Shown one piece after another: positions 261 to 10,349 of a stretch of 64,000 bases of DNA. Under the pieces are notes generated by a model. The model was given only the letters and a program-made list of their open reading frames with translations. It made no database searches and was not told where the DNA came from. Each line of letters opens with the position of its first letter. Positions within the stretch are counted from its first letter, which is position 1. The translations under genes and the position numbers were made by a program. The stretch covers positions 62,001 to 126,000 of the forward strand of contig JACOEM010000005.1 of NCBI GenBank assembly GCA_024998565.1, in the 5' to 3' direction. The stretch comes from Nitrospira sp. (lineage in GTDB: Bacteria; Nitrospirota; Nitrospiria; Nitrospirales; Nitrospiraceae).

Positions 261-2481
261 GGCTGTACTTATCCCGGAGCCGCTGACGAATGAGTTCCGC
301 CAACGAGTTGATGACAAACGTGACGATGAACAAGAGCAAGGCGGCGAGGAACAACACCCGATAGAGACTTCCGCCATGCGGAGCTTCCGGAATTTCCACG
401 GCGATATTGGCCGACAGCGTCCGAAAGCCGTTCGCCCAATTCCAATCGAGAATGGGAGTATTCCCCGTGGCCATCAGGACGATCATGGTTTCCCCGATCG
501 CACGCCCGAACCCGATCATCACGGCGGAGAATATTCCCGGGCTGGCGGACAACAGCACCAGATACAGAACGGTTTGCCAACGAGTCGCGCCCAGCGCGAG
601 CGACCCGGCGATTTGGATCTTCGGCACATTGGACAGCGCCTCTTCGGCAATACTGTAGATGACCGGGACGATGGCAAACCCCATCATGATACCGACGATC
701 AGCGCGTTGCGCTGATCGTATTCGATACCGAGCCGGGTTGAGAGCCAGGCCTTGACGTTCCCATCGAACCACCAGCCTTCGATGGTGGAATTGGCCCAGA
801 GGCAGCCGACGATTCCGAGAGCCATGATGGGGAGCAGCAGCAATGCTTCCTGACCCTGCGGGAGGTGGCGTTTCACGGACAACGGACAGAGGTACCAGGC
901 GAACGAGGCCACGACAACCAGCAGAGGCAACACCAGCGCCATACCGGCCACCGCCGGGAGCATTCGTTCAAGAAGAGGGGCCAGCCAGAGCCCGGCAAGG
1001 AAACCGAGCACCACGGTCGGCAACGCCGCCATGACTTCAATAATAGGTTTAATTTTCGCGCGCAGGTCCTGATGCATGAATTGCGAGGTGCACAGCGCCG
1101 CCAGAATGGCAATCGGCACGGCGAGAAACAGGGCGTACATCGTCCCCTTGAGAGTTCCGAATGCCAGCGGAAGCAGACCGAGCTTCGGCTCAACATCATC
1201 CGACCCGGAGGAGGATTGCCACACATGCGCCGGCTGATCGTACCCCTCGTACCAGATCTTGCCGAACAACGTCTCGAGCGTCACTTCTGGATAGGCATTC
1301 TGCACCTGGTACAGAGTCAGTTGCCCGGCCCCGTCCAACGCGATCAACCCGTCGCCTTTCGGCGCGAACGCCACGGCGCGGATCGGAAACTCACTGTTGG
1401 CCAGCCGCAACAACGTTTGAGAAGAGGTCGCATGGTGCAGGAACAGATTGCCCTTCATATCGCCGGTCACGAACCCCTTGACCCGTTGCGACGGAGCAAA
1501 CGCGGTGACCGGCGCATTGTGAGGGCGGAGGGTATGGATTTGGGTCAGTTTCCAACCGGACGGGGCATCGGCGCGTCGCACAAGTCCCCAGGTCGAGACC
1601 GCACCGTCCTCAGACATGACCACCAGGCTACGATCGCCACTCAGAAACCCCAACGTCGTGACGGCCGTCGAGGATGCGGCGACAGTATAGGCGGCCCTCA
1701 TCTCCGGCGACTCCGTCTCGGACAAGGCGACATGCACCACCTGTCCGTCCGCGGTTCCCACATACAGATTTTCAAGTAACGCATCCAGGGCGAGAGCCGT
1801 CACCGCACCTTTCGGTTGCGGCAGTTCCGTGATGATCGGATGGTCGCCCGCCACGTCATCCGCCGCTATGCGCACGACGAGCAGCCGGCCGCCCTTCGAC
1901 AGGAGGGCCAGCAGACTTCCTTGATCATTGGCCCGGTAGGCCAGCCGGACGATGGGGCTCTTCGTCAGTGGAATAGGTTGACCGGCGCGAATATGCGGGC
2001 GCTTGCGTCGCTCGCCTTGATCGGTAAATTCCGTCGTGGTGCCGACTTTCAAGAACAGGATTTCACCATCGGCTGTGCCCACGGCCAACCGCGGAGCATT
2101 GCCGCCTCCGGACGCCATCGCCGTGATCTGGCGGCTCGTTACCTGTGCCGGCATCTCCAACGGGATGGGTTGGCCCGATGCCAGATCGAAGAACTGAATG
2201 GCTCCTGATGTGAACACCTGCGCGATCTCACGATGTTCATCGACCGCCACCTGAGCCGGACCTTCGTCCACAAGCAGGGCAGGCACACTCAGGCGTTGAG
2301 TCAACTTCGCGCTCGGCGCCGTGAACAACGGGGTGACTTCGCGAAACAGAAAAAAGAAGATCCCGAGAATGCTGACGATGGTCGCCAGCCCACCGACGGT
2401 AATAATGGCCCGGGCAAGCCGATCGAACAATGTTCGGAGATGCACAGGCCTCAGCATCAGTCGGAATCGCTCCGTGATCAT
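253..2481 (-). CDS. pstC: Phosphate ABC transporter permease PstC, large form with beta-propeller-like insert
   Basis: 742 residues, more than twice the usual 300-320. After one N-terminal membrane segment (about 22-46) comes a periplasmic region of roughly 350 residues with repeated strand motifs of the WD40/propeller type (for example VGTADGEIL and VGTADGQVV). A PstC permease core follows from about residue 435, with the EAA-type loop near IAGSLALGATRW and the GRAIGETM motif. With PstA it forms the membrane channel for phosphate. The ATG shares one base with the pstS stop (TAATG), so pstS-pstC-pstA is one transcription unit. Long PstC forms are known in several phyla, but the role of the extra domain is unclear. 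Confidence 0.93.
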   Translation of the reverse strand: MITERFRLMLRPVHLRTLFDRLARAIITVGGLATIVSILGIFFFLFREVTPLFTAPSAKLTQRLSVPALLVDEGPAQVAVDEHREIAQVFTSGAIQFFDLASGQPIPLEMPAQVTSRQITAMASGGGNAPRLAVGTADGEILFLKVGTTTEFTDQGERRKRPHIRAGQPIPLTKSPIVRLAYRANDQGSLLALLSKGGRLLVVRIAADDVAGDHPIITELPQPKGAVTALALDALLENLYVGTADGQVVHVALSETESPEMRAAYTVAASSTAVTTLGFLSGDRSLVVMSEDGAVSTWGLVRRADAPSGWKLTQIHTLRPHNAPVTAFAPSQRVKGFVTGDMKGNLFLHHATSSQTLLRLANSEFPIRAVAFAPKGDGLIALDGAGQLTLYQVQNAYPEVTLETLFGKIWYEGYDQPAHVWQSSSGSDDVEPKLGLLPLAFGTLKGTMYALFLAVPIAILAALCTSQFMHQDLRAKIKPIIEVMAALPTVVLGFLAGLWLAPLLERMLPAVAGMALVLPLLVVVASFAWYLCPLSVKRHLPQGQEALLLLPIMALGIVGCLWANSTIEGWWFDGNVKAWLSTRLGIEYDQRNALIVGIMMGFAIVPVIYSIAEEALSNVPKIQIAGSLALGATRWQTVLYLVLLSASPGIFSAVMIGFGRAIGETMIVLMATGNTPILDWNWANGFRTLSANIAVEIPEAPHGGSLYRVLFLAALLLFIVTFVINSLAELIRQRLRDKYSHG

Positions 2482-3497
2482 TACCGGATCTGGCTCAGCT
2501 GCTTCTCAGCCAAGGTGGCATCGACCGGGAAGTAGCCATCCCTCAGCACGTCGGATTGCCCCTCCCTGCTGTACACGTAGGCAAGAAACTCTTTCACGAT
2601 GGGGGAGAGGGGTTTTCCCGGGGCCTGATTCACATAGATGTACAAGTATCGCCAGAGCGGATACGTGCCGTTTCTCGTGTTCGCCTGGGTGGGTTCGATG
2701 AGCGGTTGGCCGGGCTTTACCGCCAGCGGAAGCATTTTTACTCCGGACGTGGTATAGCCGATCCCGCTGTAGCCGATGCCGTAACGATCTTCGCTGATCC
2801 CTTGCACCACGGAGGCGGAGCCGGGCTGTTCCTTCACCTGATCCTTGAAGTCGCCGTTCTTGAGTGCGTGTTCCTTGAAGAAGCCATAGGTGCCGGAAGC
2901 AGAATTGCGGCCATAGAGACTGACAGGCGCAGCGGCCCAGTCTCCGGTCAATCCGAGTTGTCCCCACTTGATCAGTTCGACCGCATGGCCCTGCCTCCGG
3001 GATTTGGAAAACAGCGCGTCCACCTCTGTAACCGTGAGTCCCTTGATCGGATTGTCCTTATTGACGAAGAGCGCCAAGGCATCCACCGCGACAGGGTAGG
3101 CAGTCGGCGGGTACCCGAACTTCGTTTCGAATGCATCGATCTCGCTCGACTTCATCGTCCGCGACATGGGACCGAGTTGAGCCGTGTTTTCAATGAGCGC
3201 AGGCGGCGCCGTGCTGGACCCCTTCCCCTCGACTTGAATTTTCACATTGGGATATTGCTTGCGGAATCCCTCCGCCCACAGCGTGATCAAGTTGTTCAAG
3301 GTATCGGAGCCGATGCTGTTGATCGTTCCGGAGACGCCGCTGACCTTACTATAGGACTTGAGCTTGGTATCGACGCTTCCCTGTTCGATGACAGCGACAG
3401 GCTCAGCGGCACCGGCTGTCCAAAGATCGGTCGTCATGAACGAACCCAACACTGCGAGCGTCACGCTCATACAGACTCGGCGGGCGGATAAGGACAT
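2481..3497 (-). CDS. pstS: Phosphate ABC transporter substrate-binding protein PstS
   Basis: 338 residues with an N-terminal signal peptide ending near the Ala-rich TAGAAEP. The phosphate-site signatures are the SIGSDTL loop and YGRNSASGTYGFF, matching the Arg and Ser-Gly-Thr ligands of E. coli PstS. The protein catches phosphate in the periplasm and delivers it to PstCA. The start is set at ATG 3497 because GGAGGAG lies 7 nt before it; a TTG at 3515 is in frame but would put that ribosome-binding site inside the gene. A row of Pho-box-like half-sites lies 90-120 nt upstream. It is the first gene of pstSCA. Confidence 0.95.
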   Translation of the reverse strand: MSLSARRVCMSVTLAVLGSFMTTDLWTAGAAEPVAVIEQGSVDTKLKSYSKVSGVSGTINSIGSDTLNNLITLWAEGFRKQYPNVKIQVEGKGSSTAPPALIENTAQLGPMSRTMKSSEIDAFETKFGYPPTAYPVAVDALALFVNKDNPIKGLTVTEVDALFSKSRRQGHAVELIKWGQLGLTGDWAAAPVSLYGRNSASGTYGFFKEHALKNGDFKDQVKEQPGSASVVQGISEDRYGIGYSGIGYTTSGVKMLPLAVKPGQPLIEPTQANTRNGTYPLWRYLYIYVNQAPGKPLSPIVKEFLAYVYSREGQSDVLRDGYFPVDATLAEKQLSQIR

Positions 3498-3682: not shown

Positions 3683-3890
3683 CTAGCAGGATGCGGAAAA
3701 AGTCCGCCAGCGGCGTTCTCGCATCGCTCAGCGGCTCACCGTACGGCACGAGTACGATTCGCCACTTCGCTCGCTGCGGCCTTGCTGGACGGCCTTTTTG
3801 CTCATCCTGCGGCCGATTCTGATACCGACACGCCACGTGAGCTGATCGCGGCGTATTGCGGAACAATCCAGTTTTTCCACAGCCTGCTAG
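3683..3890. repeat. MITE-like inverted-repeat element, copy A
   Basis: A 125-bp core (3686-3810) has inverted ends: GCAGGATGCGGAAAAAG on the left, and GCAGGATGAGCAAAAAG read from the right on the other strand. An extra matching end, CTAGCAGGCTGTGGAAAAA, reads inward from 3890. The core interior matches the element at 47115-47239 in opposite orientation, including the stretch TACGATTCGCCAC and the segment around GGCCTTGCTGGACGGCC. No transposase is encoded, so this is a non-autonomous, MITE/REP-like sequence between pstS and the next gene. Confidence 0.75.
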
Positions 3891-3994: not shown

Positions 3995-4711
3995 TCAGAC
4001 GGCCGGTCCGCATCCCGCCAGGCCCTTTTGATGAACCCATCGGAGCAGCTTTAACCGGGTGCTGATGCCAAGTTTGCCGAACAGATTGGTCAGGTGATGA
4101 CGGACAGTGATGGTGGAGATGTGAAGGCGGTCGGCAATGTCTTTGTTGGACAGACCTTGTCCGACCAACAGGGCAATCTCCTGTTCACGATCGGTCAAGG
4201 GAGAATCAAGGCGTTCAGGCAAGGAGGGACTCGCAGGGTCCCGACAGTCGGTCGTTTCTCTGCTATCCGACGAGGTCGGGTCGTTGCGCTCCTGTCGCCG
4301 GGACGTTCCGGGGAGCCTGCGGAGGTAGTCGACGGTTGCGAGCAGGACCTCCACCGGTTGAATGTTCAATACAATGCCGTCGATGCCGGACAACAGGAGC
4401 CCGCCGGTACCGTGCCTGTATTCCATGGCACTGATGGCGATGATTCTGATCGTCGGAACGGAAATCCGCACCTTCCGCACCAGGTCTGCGATGTCGATTT
4501 CTGACTCAAGCACCACAATGAGCGCCCGGGGCTTCTCGCGTGCGACGATCTCCTCCGCGTCCGATGCGTTGATCGCTTCCCCAACCAGCCTGACGTGCGG
4601 GTGAGTCGTCAGGACGGCCTGCAGGCCGAGACGGACGAGATCACTCTTGCAGACGGTCGCCAGGGCAATTGAATAATCGGGTGGTTCTCGTTCGCTCACT
4701 GGACCCATCAT
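3995..4711 (-). CDS. LuxR/NarL-family regulator with degenerate receiver domain
   Basis: 238 residues from the chosen ATG. The C-terminal 65 residues are a clear GerE/LuxR helix-turn-helix (LTDREQEIALLVGQGLSNKD, then STITVRHHLTNLFGKLGIS). The first about 125 residues have the length and strand pattern of a receiver, but the acidic pair is absent (VCKSD), the phospho-acceptor Asp is replaced in VVLESE, and the conserved Lys is replaced in VLNIQP. It probably works without phosphorylation. ATG 4711 is preceded by AGGCAGGA; an in-frame ATG at 4750 and GTG at 4780 lack good ribosome-binding sites. It lies in the phosphate island without a neighbouring histidine kinase. Confidence 0.85.
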   Translation of the reverse strand: MMGPVSEREPPDYSIALATVCKSDLVRLGLQAVLTTHPHVRLVGEAINASDAEEIVAREKPRALIVVLESEIDIADLVRKVRISVPTIRIIAISAMEYRHGTGGLLLSGIDGIVLNIQPVEVLLATVDYLRRLPGTSRRQERNDPTSSDSRETTDCRDPASPSLPERLDSPLTDREQEIALLVGQGLSNKDIADRLHISTITVRHHLTNLFGKLGISTRLKLLRWVHQKGLAGCGPAV

Positions 4712-4742
4712 TCCTGCCTGAGGTCTACCGCCTTCTGCCTCG

Positions 4743-5054
4743 TTACGCATGGGATGAGGCCGAAAGGCGATCGAGGCCACCTTGCCTCGTATCTGCGGCT
4801 TGTGAGAGCGTCAACCGTTCGGCCTCCAGCCAATCTTGGCGATCATGCCCGTCCTGCCGTCCCCGGCGCTGATACAGCTCATAGGCCAGTTTCTCAATGC
4901 GTATCCTGATCTCCTCGGCCGCTGCCATGCCGCCGGTTGGTTGCGGTTGCCGGTCGCGGACCGGCCGTGGGCGGGCAGACGCCTTCTTGGCCGACTTGGA
5001 GGGGCTACCTTTCTGCTTACTGTCTGCGGTTGACTTGATCCGTCGTTGTGCCAT
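4743..5054 (-). CDS. DUF2934-family small protein
   Basis: 103 residues. A basic, low-complexity Lys/Ser/Ala-rich first half is followed by a segment (about 48-85) with the DUF2934 pattern: an IEKLAYELYQRRG helix, then a His-Asp...DWLEAERL motif. The start at 5054 has AGGAGA seven bases upstream; the open frame runs further 5' but without such support. The function of DUF2934 is unknown, and the basic tail suggests nucleic-acid or polyanion contact (inference). It lies 31 nt upstream of the LuxR-type regulator on the same strand and may be co-transcribed with it. Confidence 0.7.
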   Translation of the reverse strand: MAQRRIKSTADSKQKGSPSKSAKKASARPRPVRDRQPQPTGGMAAAEEIRIRIEKLAYELYQRRGRQDGHDRQDWLEAERLTLSQAADTRQGGLDRLSASSHA

Positions 5055-5269
5055 CGCTGAATCTCCTGCTTGCATCGAACTGAGCCTTCCCCCTTCCGAC
5101 AGAAACGCATCGCTCGGACAATACGCACGCATGGGATTGTCGAGATTCTCCCGGAACCGTTCCACGATACGATTGTGAGGACGCCGAGTCGCTCGCCACT
5201 CGGGGGCCTCTCTGGGCAAAAGTCTTACCCAGGACCTGCGTTGCGCTCAGGCCAGTCCTCTGGCTGTCC

Positions 5270-5440
5270 TTACAGAGGGTCGGCTCGCGCGGACTCGTTG
5301 TCTTGCGCAAGGTCAGGAGACGCACCTGATCCGGCACTCACGAGGTGAATCGTCATGAACGGACCTAAGACCGTAAGGGTGAGGTTGGTGCCACCTTGCT
5401 CCGACGGCAGGGGCGTATGATTATTGCTCCATGAAAACAT
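5270..5440 (-). pseudogene. Truncated pstS-like ORF (56 residues)
   Basis: A 56-codon frame opens at ATG 5440 with a strong ribosome-binding site (GGAGGA, 7-nt spacing). Its residues 20-38, LTLTVLGPFMTIHLVSAGS, closely resemble the PstS signal-peptide region VTLAVLGSFMTTDLWTAGA of the gene at 2481-3497. After the signal-like part the similarity stops, and the frame ends at a TAA after a short hydrophilic tail. A Pho-box-like repeat lies 66 nt upstream. It looks like the 5' end of a decayed pstS copy that kept its promoter and translation start; a small exported peptide is the other option. Confidence 0.55.
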
Positions 5441-5504
5441 TGCGCTGTCCTCCGTGTGGGGAGGCCAGCATAGAGGCGCGACATTTCATGAGAGTCACTG
5501 TTTC

Positions 5505-5521
5505 TTTAACATTCGGTTAAG
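5505..5521. promoter_or_regulatory. Pho-box-like direct repeat
   Basis: Two TTAA-centred half-sites (TTTAACA and GTTAAGC) begin 11 bp apart, with TTAA at 5506-5509 and 5517-5520. They sit between the divergent truncated pstS ORF (start 5440, minus) and the PhoB-like regulator (start 5658, plus). The distance to the minus-strand ORF fits the other sites better. Confidence 0.55.
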
Positions 5522-5657
5522 CCGGACCATTTCTGGATAATGTTCATGAAGCCGTATGCGCTGCGGCGAAAGCCGCCAAGACTTTTACTGTCGAAGTAAC
5601 CTCTTCGCAATGCGGCCTTGAGGAAGGCGAAACAGATCAACCGTAGGGTCTGTTGCT

Positions 5658-6362
5658 ATGGTTTCTATGATCGTCCAGATCATCGAAGACGAGCCGCTCC
5701 ACGCCGACCTCCTGGACCGCGCGTTGCGCCAGGCCCAATTCGCGACGACGCTTGCCGCGGATGGTGAGAGTGGATGGCGTGACGCGCAGCGACTGCTGCC
5801 TTCGTTGATTCTTCTCGACTTGATGCTGCCGGGTCTCAGCGGCCATGAGGTCTGTCGCTTAGTCCGACGCACGCCTTTAACACGCCATATCCCGATCATC
5901 ATGCTGACGGCCGTCGGAACAGAAGCAGACCGTATTGCCGGCCTTGAAATGGGAGCAGACGACTACGTGGTGAAGCCGTTCAGCCCGCGGGAGGTCGTGT
6001 CGCGCGTCCATGCCGTACTGCGCAGAGTCCATGAGACACGTCGTGAGGCCCCTGTTCTGTTTTCCGATACCTCCATCACAATGGAGGGGCCTTACTTCGT
6101 CGTGTCCTTGCAGGAACGGCAAATCACCGTTTCGAACACAGAGCTGAGGCTGCTTCAATACCTGTTGACTCGGGATGGGGAATTGGTGCGCGGCGATGAA
6201 CTGCTGAACCTTCCAGGCGAGGAGCCCGGGAGCATGAACAGAGAGGAACTCGATCACCGTGTTCGCTTTCTTCGACGAAAGCTGGAGAACAGCGGTACGG
6301 GATCGATTGAGATTTTTCCGGGGTTTCGTTATCGCTTCCTGGCCCATCCGAGGCCAACCTGA
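5658..6362 (+). CDS. OmpR/PhoB-type response regulator with intact receiver
   Basis: 234 residues. The receiver (about 4-122) has every key residue: the acidic pair in IIEDEP, the phospho-acceptor Asp in LILLDLMLPG, Thr in IIMLTA and Lys in YVVKPFSP. The C-terminal half (about 135-232) is a winged-helix Trans_reg_C-like domain ending in GFRYRF, with a less typical recognition region than most family members. A DNA-binding phosphorylated regulator is expected, and PhoB is the natural guess given the island, but no histidine kinase gene is adjacent. Two ATGs (5658, 5667) are possible and neither has a strong ribosome-binding site. Confidence 0.88.
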   Translation: MVSMIVQIIEDEPLHADLLDRALRQAQFATTLAADGESGWRDAQRLLPSLILLDLMLPGLSGHEVCRLVRRTPLTRHIPIIMLTAVGTEADRIAGLEMGADDYVVKPFSPREVVSRVHAVLRRVHETRREAPVLFSDTSITMEGPYFVVSLQERQITVSNTELRLLQYLLTRDGELVRGDELLNLPGEEPGSMNREELDHRVRFLRRKLENSGTGSIEIFPGFRYRFLAHPRPT

Positions 6363-7785: not shown

Positions 7786-7803
7786 GTTAACACCGAGTTA
7801 ACA
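7786..7803 (+). promoter_or_regulatory. Pho-box-like direct repeat upstream of the first PstS-like gene
   Basis: Two identical GTTAACA half-sites at 7786-7792 and 7797-7803, 11 bp apart. This is the clearest example in the window. A weaker AATT-centred continuation in the same 11-bp phase follows to about 7824. The ATG of the PstS-like gene is 125 nt downstream. Confidence 0.7.
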
Positions 7804-7927
7804 TCTCGCTAATTGATCAGCAATTCACCGCGAGTACCCTGGAACCAGTTATAGACAACATGTTGTTGTTTTTTCTCAAGAGAGCAATCCAATGAGCGGC
7901 AACCATCACTTCATACGGAGGCGTCAG

Positions 7928-9085
7928 ATGACACGACAGCAGCAGACAGGTTCCCAACATCACACAGGCACTCGTTCGGTTTGCACCGCGCTGGCCGCCG
8001 TCGCGGCGCTGGCACTATTCGGAGACTATGCGGCAGCAGAACATGCGGGAGGCCCGGAACGGCCCACCGCAGACACCTCTCTGGTTGCGTATGAGCCGGT
8101 AAAGGGGATCGAAGGGCGACTGACGATCACGGGTTCAGATACGATGGCGCCGCTCATGGATCGACTGGCCAATGAATTCACGCGGCTGCATGGCTATCCC
8201 AAGGTGAATCTCTTTGTGGAACATCCAGGGACCAATCCGGCGATGCGGCAATTCCTCCTGAAATATTCCAATCAGCGTCGCGGCGATAAAGCTCGTACCG
8301 GTAACACCGGAGCTGGGTTTCCTGAAATTCTTGCTTCATCTCGCGCCATGACGCCTGAGGAGCGTGCCATCTTCACATCGCAAAACGGTCATGAGGTGAT
8401 TGAGATTCCGATCGCGATGGATGCCGTCGCACTCTACGTGAGTCAGCAGAATCCCGTTCAGCATTTGACGCTGGTTCAGGCTGATGCGATGTTCGGCAGC
8501 GGACGCAAACAAGGCGCCGCCGAGGACCTAAACACCTGGGGCGCTGTGGGCGTGACAGAATGGCCATCCCAACCGATCCACCTCTATGGGCGTACCCGGA
8601 ACTCTGCAACGCACGATTTCTTTGCGCAAAATGTGTTGAAGGGCGGCGCCTTCAAGCCGCAAATCCAGGAAGTTCCTGGAACGGCAATGGAAATGCTTGC
8701 CGTGGCTCGAGACCCGCAGGGAATCGGCTATGCGGGTATCGGGTATGAGAATTCGTTCGTCAGAATGGTTCCGCTAGCGCAGAGCGCGAACAGCCCTGCC
8801 GTGGTCCCAACCGCCGAATCGGTGATGAATGGAACCTATCCTCTGAGCAGGACTCTGTATCTGTACATTAATCAAGATCCGACGGAAGCCATTGCGGACC
8901 CGCTCCTTCGCGAGTTTCTTAAGTTCGTCAATACTCGTGAAGGACAGCAAGTCGTTGCGGATGCAAAGTTTTATTTGCTCCCGAAGGAACGGATCATGCA
9001 AAATCTGACTCTTATCCAGGGGCCGACTACTACCGCCAAGCTCATGGACGCAGGGAAGCGGACCATGACGGTTCTGGCCGAATAG
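7928..9085 (+). CDS. PstS-like phosphate/anion-binding protein, first of a tandem pair
   Basis: 385 residues with a signal peptide ending near DYAAAEH. The core has the PstS loops ITGSDTM and GYAGIGYEN, but the ligand loop that reads SGT in PstS is here NSATHDFF, and there is an Arg/Lys-rich insertion after the EHPGTNPAM region. It is a periplasmic binding protein of the PstS class; altered affinity or a binding role without a transporter is possible. The start at 7928 has GGAGG six bases upstream; an earlier in-frame ATG at 7892 lacks this. A second copy follows after 115 nt, and no permease or ATPase gene is adjacent. Confidence 0.85.
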   Translation: MTRQQQTGSQHHTGTRSVCTALAAVAALALFGDYAAAEHAGGPERPTADTSLVAYEPVKGIEGRLTITGSDTMAPLMDRLANEFTRLHGYPKVNLFVEHPGTNPAMRQFLLKYSNQRRGDKARTGNTGAGFPEILASSRAMTPEERAIFTSQNGHEVIEIPIAMDAVALYVSQQNPVQHLTLVQADAMFGSGRKQGAAEDLNTWGAVGVTEWPSQPIHLYGRTRNSATHDFFAQNVLKGGAFKPQIQEVPGTAMEMLAVARDPQGIGYAGIGYENSFVRMVPLAQSANSPAVVPTAESVMNGTYPLSRTLYLYINQDPTEAIADPLLREFLKFVNTREGQQVVADAKFYLLPKERIMQNLTLIQGPTTTAKLMDAGKRTMTVLAE

Positions 9086-9200
9086 CGAGAAGTCGAATGT
9101 TGAACGGCGATCATAGCAGTGCGGCCGTTCCGAGCGTCACCGGCCACACTGATCGTGTACTTCATGAGCAGACATGTTATGTCTGTAAGGAGGAGCGACG

Positions 9201-10349
9201 ATGAGTATCAGTCGCATCAGGAGTATTGGGCCGACATTTGTGCGAGCCACCGTCTGTTCCGTTATCACCGCCACCCTTCTCAGCAGCGGCGGCGCCTGGG
9301 CAGAACGTGCCAGCGTGGCAGAGAATCCTACCATCGACGGATCCCTGACCGTCTATGAACCAGTCAACAAACTTGAGGGAAAACTGACGATCACGGGCTC
9401 CGACACCATGGCTATGCTGACGGATCAGCTGGCCTTCGAATTCACGCGGATATATGGTTATCCATCGGTCAATATCTTTGTTGAACACCCCGGATCAAAC
9501 TTCGCGATGCGAGAGTTTCTTGTGGGTTTCTCGAAGCAACGGCGAGGTGATAAGTCCAGGAGCGAAGGACATGAGGCAGCTGCATATGCAGATATTCTGG
9601 CCTCGTCACGGGTGATGACGCCGGAGGAACGGGGACATTTCAAGTCGCGATATGGTCATGATGTGCTGGAGATTCCGATCGCGTTGGATGGCGTTGGAAT
9701 CTACGTGCATGCCGCGAATCCTATCCCGCAGCTTACCCTGCAACAAGTCGACGCCATTTTCAGTTCCAGCCGAAAGTTAGGATGGCCCTCGGACATCACG
9801 AGCTGGGATAAGGCCGGTGTCGAAGAATGGTCGTCGCGGGATATCCATCTGTATGGGAGAGATTCAAAATCGGGAACGCGTGAGTTTTTCGTTCAAACCG
9901 CCTTAGGCGGCGGCACGTTGCGGTCCGACCTTCACGAACAGCCGGGGTCTGCAATGGAAATTCTGTCCATTGCCCGCGATCCGCAGGCCATTGGATATGC
10001 CGGCATCGGCTACCAGGGCTCCTTCGTCAAGGTGGTGCCGATTGCAGCACAAGCCAATGGGCAAGCGGTTCTACCGACTGCGGAAACCGTGACGGATCAT
10101 CGGTATCCGCTCAGCCGAAAGTTGTATCTCTACGTCAACCATGAACCGGGCAAGAAATTCGAGAACCCGGTGCTCCGCGAGTTTCTTCTGTTCGTCAATA
10201 GTCGGCAGGGACAGGAAATCGTGAGCAAGGCCCAATTTTATCCTGTCACCAAAGAACAACTCGCTCAGAACCTGGTCTTGATTCAAGACAAGGCGACTAC
10301 AGCGGGGTTGGAGTCGAACCACCGGTCTGGCAAGGTCCTTCCTGAATAA
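9201..10349 (+). CDS. PstS-like phosphate/anion-binding protein, second of a tandem pair
   Basis: 382 residues, similar along the whole length to the protein at 7928-9085 (shared ITGSDTMA, VNIFVEHPGSNFAMREF, ASSRVMTPEER and IGYAGIGY segments), so the pair arose by duplication. Unlike the first copy it keeps a canonical RDSKSGT phosphate loop. A signal peptide ends near GGAWAE. AAGGAGG stands eight bases before the ATG. Divergence of the ligand loop between the two copies suggests they differ in affinity or ligand. It is followed by a lipoprotein gene after 61 nt. Confidence 0.85.
   Translation: MSISRIRSIGPTFVRATVCSVITATLLSSGGAWAERASVAENPTIDGSLTVYEPVNKLEGKLTITGSDTMAMLTDQLAFEFTRIYGYPSVNIFVEHPGSNFAMREFLVGFSKQRRGDKSRSEGHEAAAYADILASSRVMTPEERGHFKSRYGHDVLEIPIALDGVGIYVHAANPIPQLTLQQVDAIFSSSRKLGWPSDITSWDKAGVEEWSSRDIHLYGRDSKSGTREFFVQTALGGGTLRSDLHEQPGSAMEILSIARDPQAIGYAGIGYQGSFVKVVPIAAQANGQAVLPTAETVTDHRYPLSRKLYLYVNHEPGKKFENPVLREFLLFVNSRQGQEIVSKAQFYPVTKEQLAQNLVLIQDKATTAGLESNHRSGKVLPE

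Follow-up and report, generated by a model that had tools for sequence, protein, structure and literature searches.

A retained pstS 5′ end in Nitrospira and its possible role as a phosphate-controlled small membrane protein

The window analyzed here, 64,000 nucleotides of a Nitrospira sp. contig (JACOEM010000005.1, positions 62,001 to 126,000), raises the question of why a short frame that resembles the signal-peptide region of PstS should stand, under a phosphate-type promoter, ahead of a complete pstS gene. An earlier note on this DNA had put the matter as a choice between a pstS duplicate that lost its body and a short, phosphate-induced exported peptide that has been retained. Our findings address the structure of this frame, its descent, the selection acting on it and the function that its product may have.

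The stub frame, its neighbors and its promoter

The frame (ORF56, hereafter the stub) occupies positions 5270-5440 of the minus strand, with an ATG at 5440, 56 sense codons and a TAA at 5272-5270, and a Shine-Dalgarno sequence GGAGGA (5448-5453, minus strand) stands 7 nt before the ATG, as the earlier note had described. This site reads GGAGGA in four of the five genomes that carry a stub and AGAGGA in G019, and the stub start in G008 is a weaker TTG. The further suggestion that the ribosome-binding site was kept from pstS proved incorrect: the Shine-Dalgarno and ATG of pstS are both mutated, and the stub, which is read in the pstS frame, begins 8 codons earlier, within the former pstS leader, at a new site and a new start. 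A relic of the pstS Shine-Dalgarno is still recognizable at 5423-5430 of the minus strand (GGAGCAAT, aligned with GGAGGAAT in the pstS genes of G014 and G026). In the same alignment the former start codon of pstS (5414-5416, minus strand) falls on codon 9 of the stub; it now reads ACG, as it does in four of the five stubs, and ATA in G020. Codons 19-40 (5321-5386, minus strand; NLTLTVLGPFMTIHLVSAGSGA) comprise the pstS-derived hydrophobic core and a putative cleavage region, and codons 49-56 (5273-5296, minus strand) encode the invariant peptide ESARADPL, in which the only changes are synonymous ones at A51, D54, P55 and L56. A three-codon frame, ATG-GAG-CAA-TAA (5432-5421, minus strand), lies across the stub start in another reading frame; in the alignment each of the five stub genomes has a three-codon frame here, closed by TAG or TAA.

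On the minus strand the stub is followed by a gene for a DUF2934 protein (4743-5054, with a probable start at ATG 5054 judging from the sequence), a LuxR-type regulator identified by its GerE domain match (3995-4780), full-length pstS (2481-3497), which probably starts with the ATG at 3497 and is preceded by a Pho-box-like repeat of its own at 3615-3599, and pstC. Opposite and divergent lies the gene of a PhoB/OmpR-type response regulator (5658-6362, plus strand), which matches the PhoB model TIGR02154 with an E value of 3e-51 but stays below the curated cut-off of that model. The Pho-like promoter, stub, DUF2934, LuxR and pstS are all codirectional in four of the five stub genomes; in G008, pstS comes directly after the stub, and the DUF2934 and LuxR genes are missing from the locus. 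The 742-residue PstC (253-2481) has weak beta-propeller (WD40-like) matches in the part that precedes the permease, and it has full-length matches in many relatives. The interval between LuxR and pstS contains a repeat of about 128 bp (3685-3815) that is dispersed in the genome, with 47 matches there at E up to 0.001 and nine nearly full-length copies, itself included, at 91% identity or more. Two extra binding proteins (7892-10349) are 86-88% identical to the versions in G023, whereas in the other stub genomes even the closest proteins share just 44-49% identity with them; the locus is therefore a mosaic.

Upstream of the stub we found the 11-bp-phased repeat CTTAACcgaatGTTAAA (5505-5521, minus strand), which is common to the pstS promoters of the genus, and a putative -10 element, TATGCT (5467-5472, minus strand). 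Alignment of 14 pstS 5′ ends places the GTTAAC repeat and the TATGCT-like element at the same distance in the stub promoter as in pstS promoters, in agreement with the Pho-box-like promoter that the earlier note had claimed. The repeat corresponds to the description of a PHO box as two direct repeats of 11 nt given in PMC4415409, and it may serve in phosphate control through putative regulator binding. No sigma-70 consensus promoter was called within 4900-5660. Within the window, TTAAC-N6-TTAAC with up to one mismatch gives 7 strand-hits versus 0.58 expected, and such sites precede pstS, the stub and the binding-protein gene at 7892. Across the genome, the stricter pattern GTTAAC-N5-GTTAAC is not enriched (2+2 strand-hits versus 3+3 in a reversed control), so that the case for a Pho box depends on where the repeat lies and on its conservation rather than on counts. 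The only perfect GTTAAC-N5-GTTAAC site of this genome, GTTAACACCGAGTTAAC (7786-7802), which matches on both strands, precedes the binding-protein gene at 7892.

Descent from pstS and place in the genus

Over 70 nt the stub DNA is 84% identical to pstS in both G014 (E 5e-15) and G028 (E 3e-15), and profile matching gives E values of 3e-10 and 2e-10. A search of 29 genomes of the genus, our own included, matched the stub region whole in five (G000, G015, G019, G020 and G008) and over 35-70 nt in six more; five of these partial matches fall in the signal-peptide codons of a full-length pstS, and the sixth, a weak one in G003 (E 9e-4), lies at its pstS by coordinates. Ahead of the core, stub and pstS align over 57 nt with no gap, the G015 stub being identical at 33 of 57 positions to the pstS of G026 (z 6.2) and at 28 of 57 to that of the window (z 4.2); this comparison gave P < 0.05 for eight of the 14 pstS and not for the other six (G001, G002, G003, G007, G009 and G021). 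The stub thus keeps the pstS leader, gap-free to the closest of the 14 aligned 5′ ends. DNA identity, a leader in register and the relic Shine-Dalgarno and start codon all indicate that the stub and the pstS 5′ end share an ancestor, and on sequence grounds the resemblance to the PstS signal region, first seen as a likeness between peptides, is homology at the level of both DNA and profile, not chance. Together with the promoter, this strongly supports the earlier reading of the frame as a pstS remnant. No family match to the frame was obtained, and the phosphate-binding PBP domain (PF12849 or TIGR02136) is absent from it.

Other explanations were also considered. An origin from PstS2, the binding protein encoded opposite the regulator in G023, G002, G014 and G028, is rejected, as its N-termini are unrelated and it is the pstS N-termini that match. 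Gene conversion by a copy in the same genome is not supported, with no second DNA match to the stub region there at E up to 0.001. A DNA-level element within the signal codons, in place of coding constraint, is rejected for pstS, as the fourfold-site identity of 0.50 in the core is close to the 0.44 of the mature part in the 10 pstS that this comparison covered (G023 was left out).

The place of the stub is that of pstS in many relatives. By coordinates, a full-length pstS directly faces the response regulator in 14 of the 29 genomes (G001, G003, G005, G006, G009, G010, G011, G013, G016, G017, G018, G022, G025 and G027), so the absence of pstS from this locus in relatives, which the earlier note would have held against its own reading, is not what we found. 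That place is taken by the stub in five genomes and by PstS2 in four (G002, G014, G023 and G028, in the last over two contigs); among the other six, the regulator is broken in G004 and G021, G026 is rearranged, and no such pair was seen in G007, G012 and G024. The pstS downstream of the stub carries a signal sequence of another kind in four of the five stub genomes (VLVFSxLYALIVMPxxC), like that of G004, G006 and G016, and its 5′ end therefore looks like the newcomer; the downstream pstS of the window genome has a signal sequence resembling that of G023. Across the genus, two unrelated kinds of N-terminal signal are found on a nearly identical mature PstS (L024, L025, L022 and L023 versus the window gene at 3497), a sign of 5′-end replacement. 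A scan of the genome contigs revealed no additional stubs (nine loci, three of them the known stub loci). In five species plus G023, the trees of PstC, the pstS body and the membrane protein are discordant with each other and with the regulator tree, so no single species tree is assumed.

The stub is best read as the original pstS 5′ end, still in place, which is the simplest account, with recombination steps that we infer. In an ancestor of the five Nitrospira species, pstS would have received a different promoter and signal sequence further downstream, while the old promoter, leader and signal-peptide codons would have remained at the ancestral place beside the regulator gene. The old start would then have been lost and replaced, 8 codons ahead of it, by an in-frame start with a new Shine-Dalgarno, and a stop after 56 codons would have closed a small gene. 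The two pstS-type 5′ ends in tandem could also have come from a tandem duplication of pstS after which the upstream copy lost its body, a proposal that concerns origin only and is compatible with any function. We consider this improbable, as past the stub stop there is no trace of a pstS body (matches there do not exceed 16 nt), the downstream 5′ end belongs to the other kind in four of the five genomes, and no relative has two full tandem pstS genes among the loci mapped. The layout is better suited to an original 5′ end at its ancestral place than to the bodiless duplicate that the earlier note had offered.

Selection on the frame and the possible function of its product

The stub has the same stop and the same length in all five genomes, with no indel, and further downstream 39 of 184 columns are gapped in the four genomes compared. 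An open frame by itself is unremarkable, because it would stay open by chance with a probability of 0.27, or 0.20 with the start codon, when only substitutions are considered. The pattern of changes within it is more informative. Codons 2-56 hold 29 changes, 16 synonymous and 13 nonsynonymous, where random placement gives 67% nonsynonymous (P 0.0075), and the same test was not significant in the other two forward and the three reverse frames (P 0.57, 0.85, 0.69, 0.059 and 0.93). A codon model fitted on a FastTree topology from the concatenated neighbors gave an omega of 0.28 for the stub (2dlnL 11.2, LRT p 8e-4) and 0.145 for codons 19-56. Codons 2-18, with an omega of 0.69 (p 0.57), are compatible with neutrality, and codons 41-56 on their own are not significant (P 0.23). 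The hydrophobic segment of codons 19-40 shows six synonymous and no amino-acid changes across the five genomes; this segment was chosen after inspection, so a scan statistic over all codons was used, which gave P 0.0018 for a 22-codon run without amino-acid change and P 0.013 for such a run with six synonymous changes. When each genome was left out in turn, the placement test gave P values of 0.005-0.053, the weakest being that without the window genome. Mean dN/dS was 0.265 for the stub, compared to 0.148 for the regulator, 0.116 for PstC and 0.157 for the membrane protein. As judged from only five sequences and about 30 changes, the stub peptide evolves under purifying selection, strongest in the hydrophobic core and seemingly without constraint on the N-terminal part. 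The conservation and dN/dS check that the earlier note had called for thus finds the 5440-5270 frame in five of the 29 genomes and under constraint, and the stub has the properties of an intergenic small ORF (56 codons, intergenic, dN/dS below 1). Of the choice posed in that note, both halves hold in part, as the frame is a remnant and is also under selection; what does not hold is that the two exclude each other.

A decaying relic, i.e., functionless leftover DNA that is recognizable as the species are close and whose synonymous bias is a small-sample accident, would accord with the lack of detectable constraint in codons 2-18, the considerable chance of an open frame, the absence of the stub from 24 of the 29 genomes and the TTG start in G008. 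However, none of 400 neutral simulations (omega 1) produced an omega as low as that of the stub, six synonymous changes and no amino-acid change fell in 22 successive codons, and the two flanking non-coding stretches have evolved twice as fast (0.158 and 0.154 versus 0.073 in the stub). The old start, moreover, was replaced by a new one and not simply lost. We therefore regard such a relic as unlikely, though we acknowledge that the third-position distance of the stub, 0.105 versus 0.147-0.228 in neighboring genes, counts against the explanation that we prefer.

That explanation, to which the combined evidence from sequence inclines us with a little better than even confidence, is that a retained pstS 5′ end now encodes a small protein that is controlled by phosphate and targeted to the membrane. 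When phosphate is scarce, the PhoB-like regulator would bind the GTTAAC repeat and switch on the stub, alone or together with DUF2934 and LuxR. The hydrophobic core inherited from pstS would direct the 56-residue product to the inner membrane, where it would act as a membrane-bound or exported small protein that probably adjusts how phosphate is taken up or sensed. This proposed function draws on selection, promoter and sequence; family, solved-structure and RNA searches with the stub returned no match giving a function. A classical Sec signal peptide has a positive n-region, a hydrophobic core and small residues at -3 and -1. The core of the stub has a mean hydropathy of 1.72 over 12 residues, and VSA-G is, by eye, a possible cleavage site. 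The positive charge before the core has been lost, leaving a net charge of -1 in the window stub and 0 in G015, and for this reason the product may function poorly as a signal peptide or act as a membrane anchor, with export putative. That the stub is kept as a separate frame in five nitrite-oxidizing relatives suggests that the leftover gained its own job.

A small phosphate-controlled membrane protein appears likeliest, and next we would place a translated leader, whose frame is kept as its translation, perhaps with pausing at its end, controls the downstream genes of a shared transcript in the manner of SecM-type or CutF-type leaders, while the peptide has no further task. The codirectional order of promoter, stub, DUF2934, LuxR and pstS in four of the five stub genomes suits such a leader, as does the invariant ESARADPL end. 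All five stubs terminate in RADP-Leu-stop, so that a motif resembling RAPP lies close to the C-terminus, and PMC10987492 includes RADP in its set of motifs taken from leaders that cluster with SecM; any of the 25 listed motifs would occur in the last 15 residues with a composition-based chance of about 0.006, though the motif was noticed after the fact. That an exported leader can sense a nutrient is known from CutF (PMC9973294). The hydrophobic core, however, ends near residue 36 and the motif lies at 52-55, about 15 residues on, compared to more than 40 in a published screen (PMC7897499). The next start is about 215 nt downstream (DUF2934, in the window) or 187 nt (pstS, in G008), the RNA from the stub end to DUF2934 is no more structured than shuffled sequences (z -0.74), and no Rfam element was found in the stub region. 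Furthermore, pstS has a Pho-like repeat of its own, and G008 keeps the frame though DUF2934 and LuxR are both missing, which speaks against a role solely as their leader. We consider a leader of this kind rather unlikely, and we give even less credence to an elaborated version, in which the severed pstS signal peptide, still under its Pho promoter, became a phosphate-controlled regulatory leader with an arrest-type RADP-Leu-stop end whose translation or membrane insertion would report phosphate-uptake or export capacity and adjust the downstream regulator genes and the pst operon; this we find very doubtful.

Comparison with known systems

As a small membrane protein or otherwise, the stub is a traceable case of small-gene birth from the severed front of a known gene and not from random intergenic DNA. 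In its history a nutrient-type promoter and a hydrophobic core were kept, the start codon was replaced and the peptide later came under selection. If its product is functional, it would be a new component of phosphate control in Nitrospira. None of the titles returned by our searches of the open PMC library describes a comparable case.

The SecM, ApdA/ApdP and RQH arrest leaders, as presented in PMC7897499 and PMC10987492, share with the stub an N-terminal hydrophobic signal and a RAxP-type end by the stop codon. Unlike these Sec-linked leaders, the stub has a spacer that is too short and no secA, secDF or yidC directly downstream, where DUF2934, LuxR and pstS, or pstS alone in G008, are found instead; arrest is putative. 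The CutF leader of cutO (PMC9973294) likewise combines a short frame with a signal segment and lies ahead of genes related to a nutrient; the stub differs from it in lacking DUF2946 (no Pfam match) and in having no masking stem-loop shown near its stop. Small DUF1127 proteins, according to PMC12501420, bind PhoR, and very short proteins can thus tune the Pho system, although the stub itself has no DUF1127 match. With pstS (TIGR02136 / PF12849), the stub shares a homologous promoter, leader and signal-peptide codons, as well as the place that pstS holds in 14 of the 29 genomes; in contrast to pstS, it is without the binding-protein domain, has a new start and Shine-Dalgarno and ends after 56 codons. 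The Entero67K small ORFs (PMC11188072) are, like the stub, intergenic frames of 15-70 codons with a hydrophobic segment and a dN/dS below 1. The main text of PMC11188072 contains no words starting with remnant, pseudogen, truncat or decay. Entero67K is a set from Enterobacteriaceae, whereas the origin of the Nitrospira stub can be traced to a named gene.
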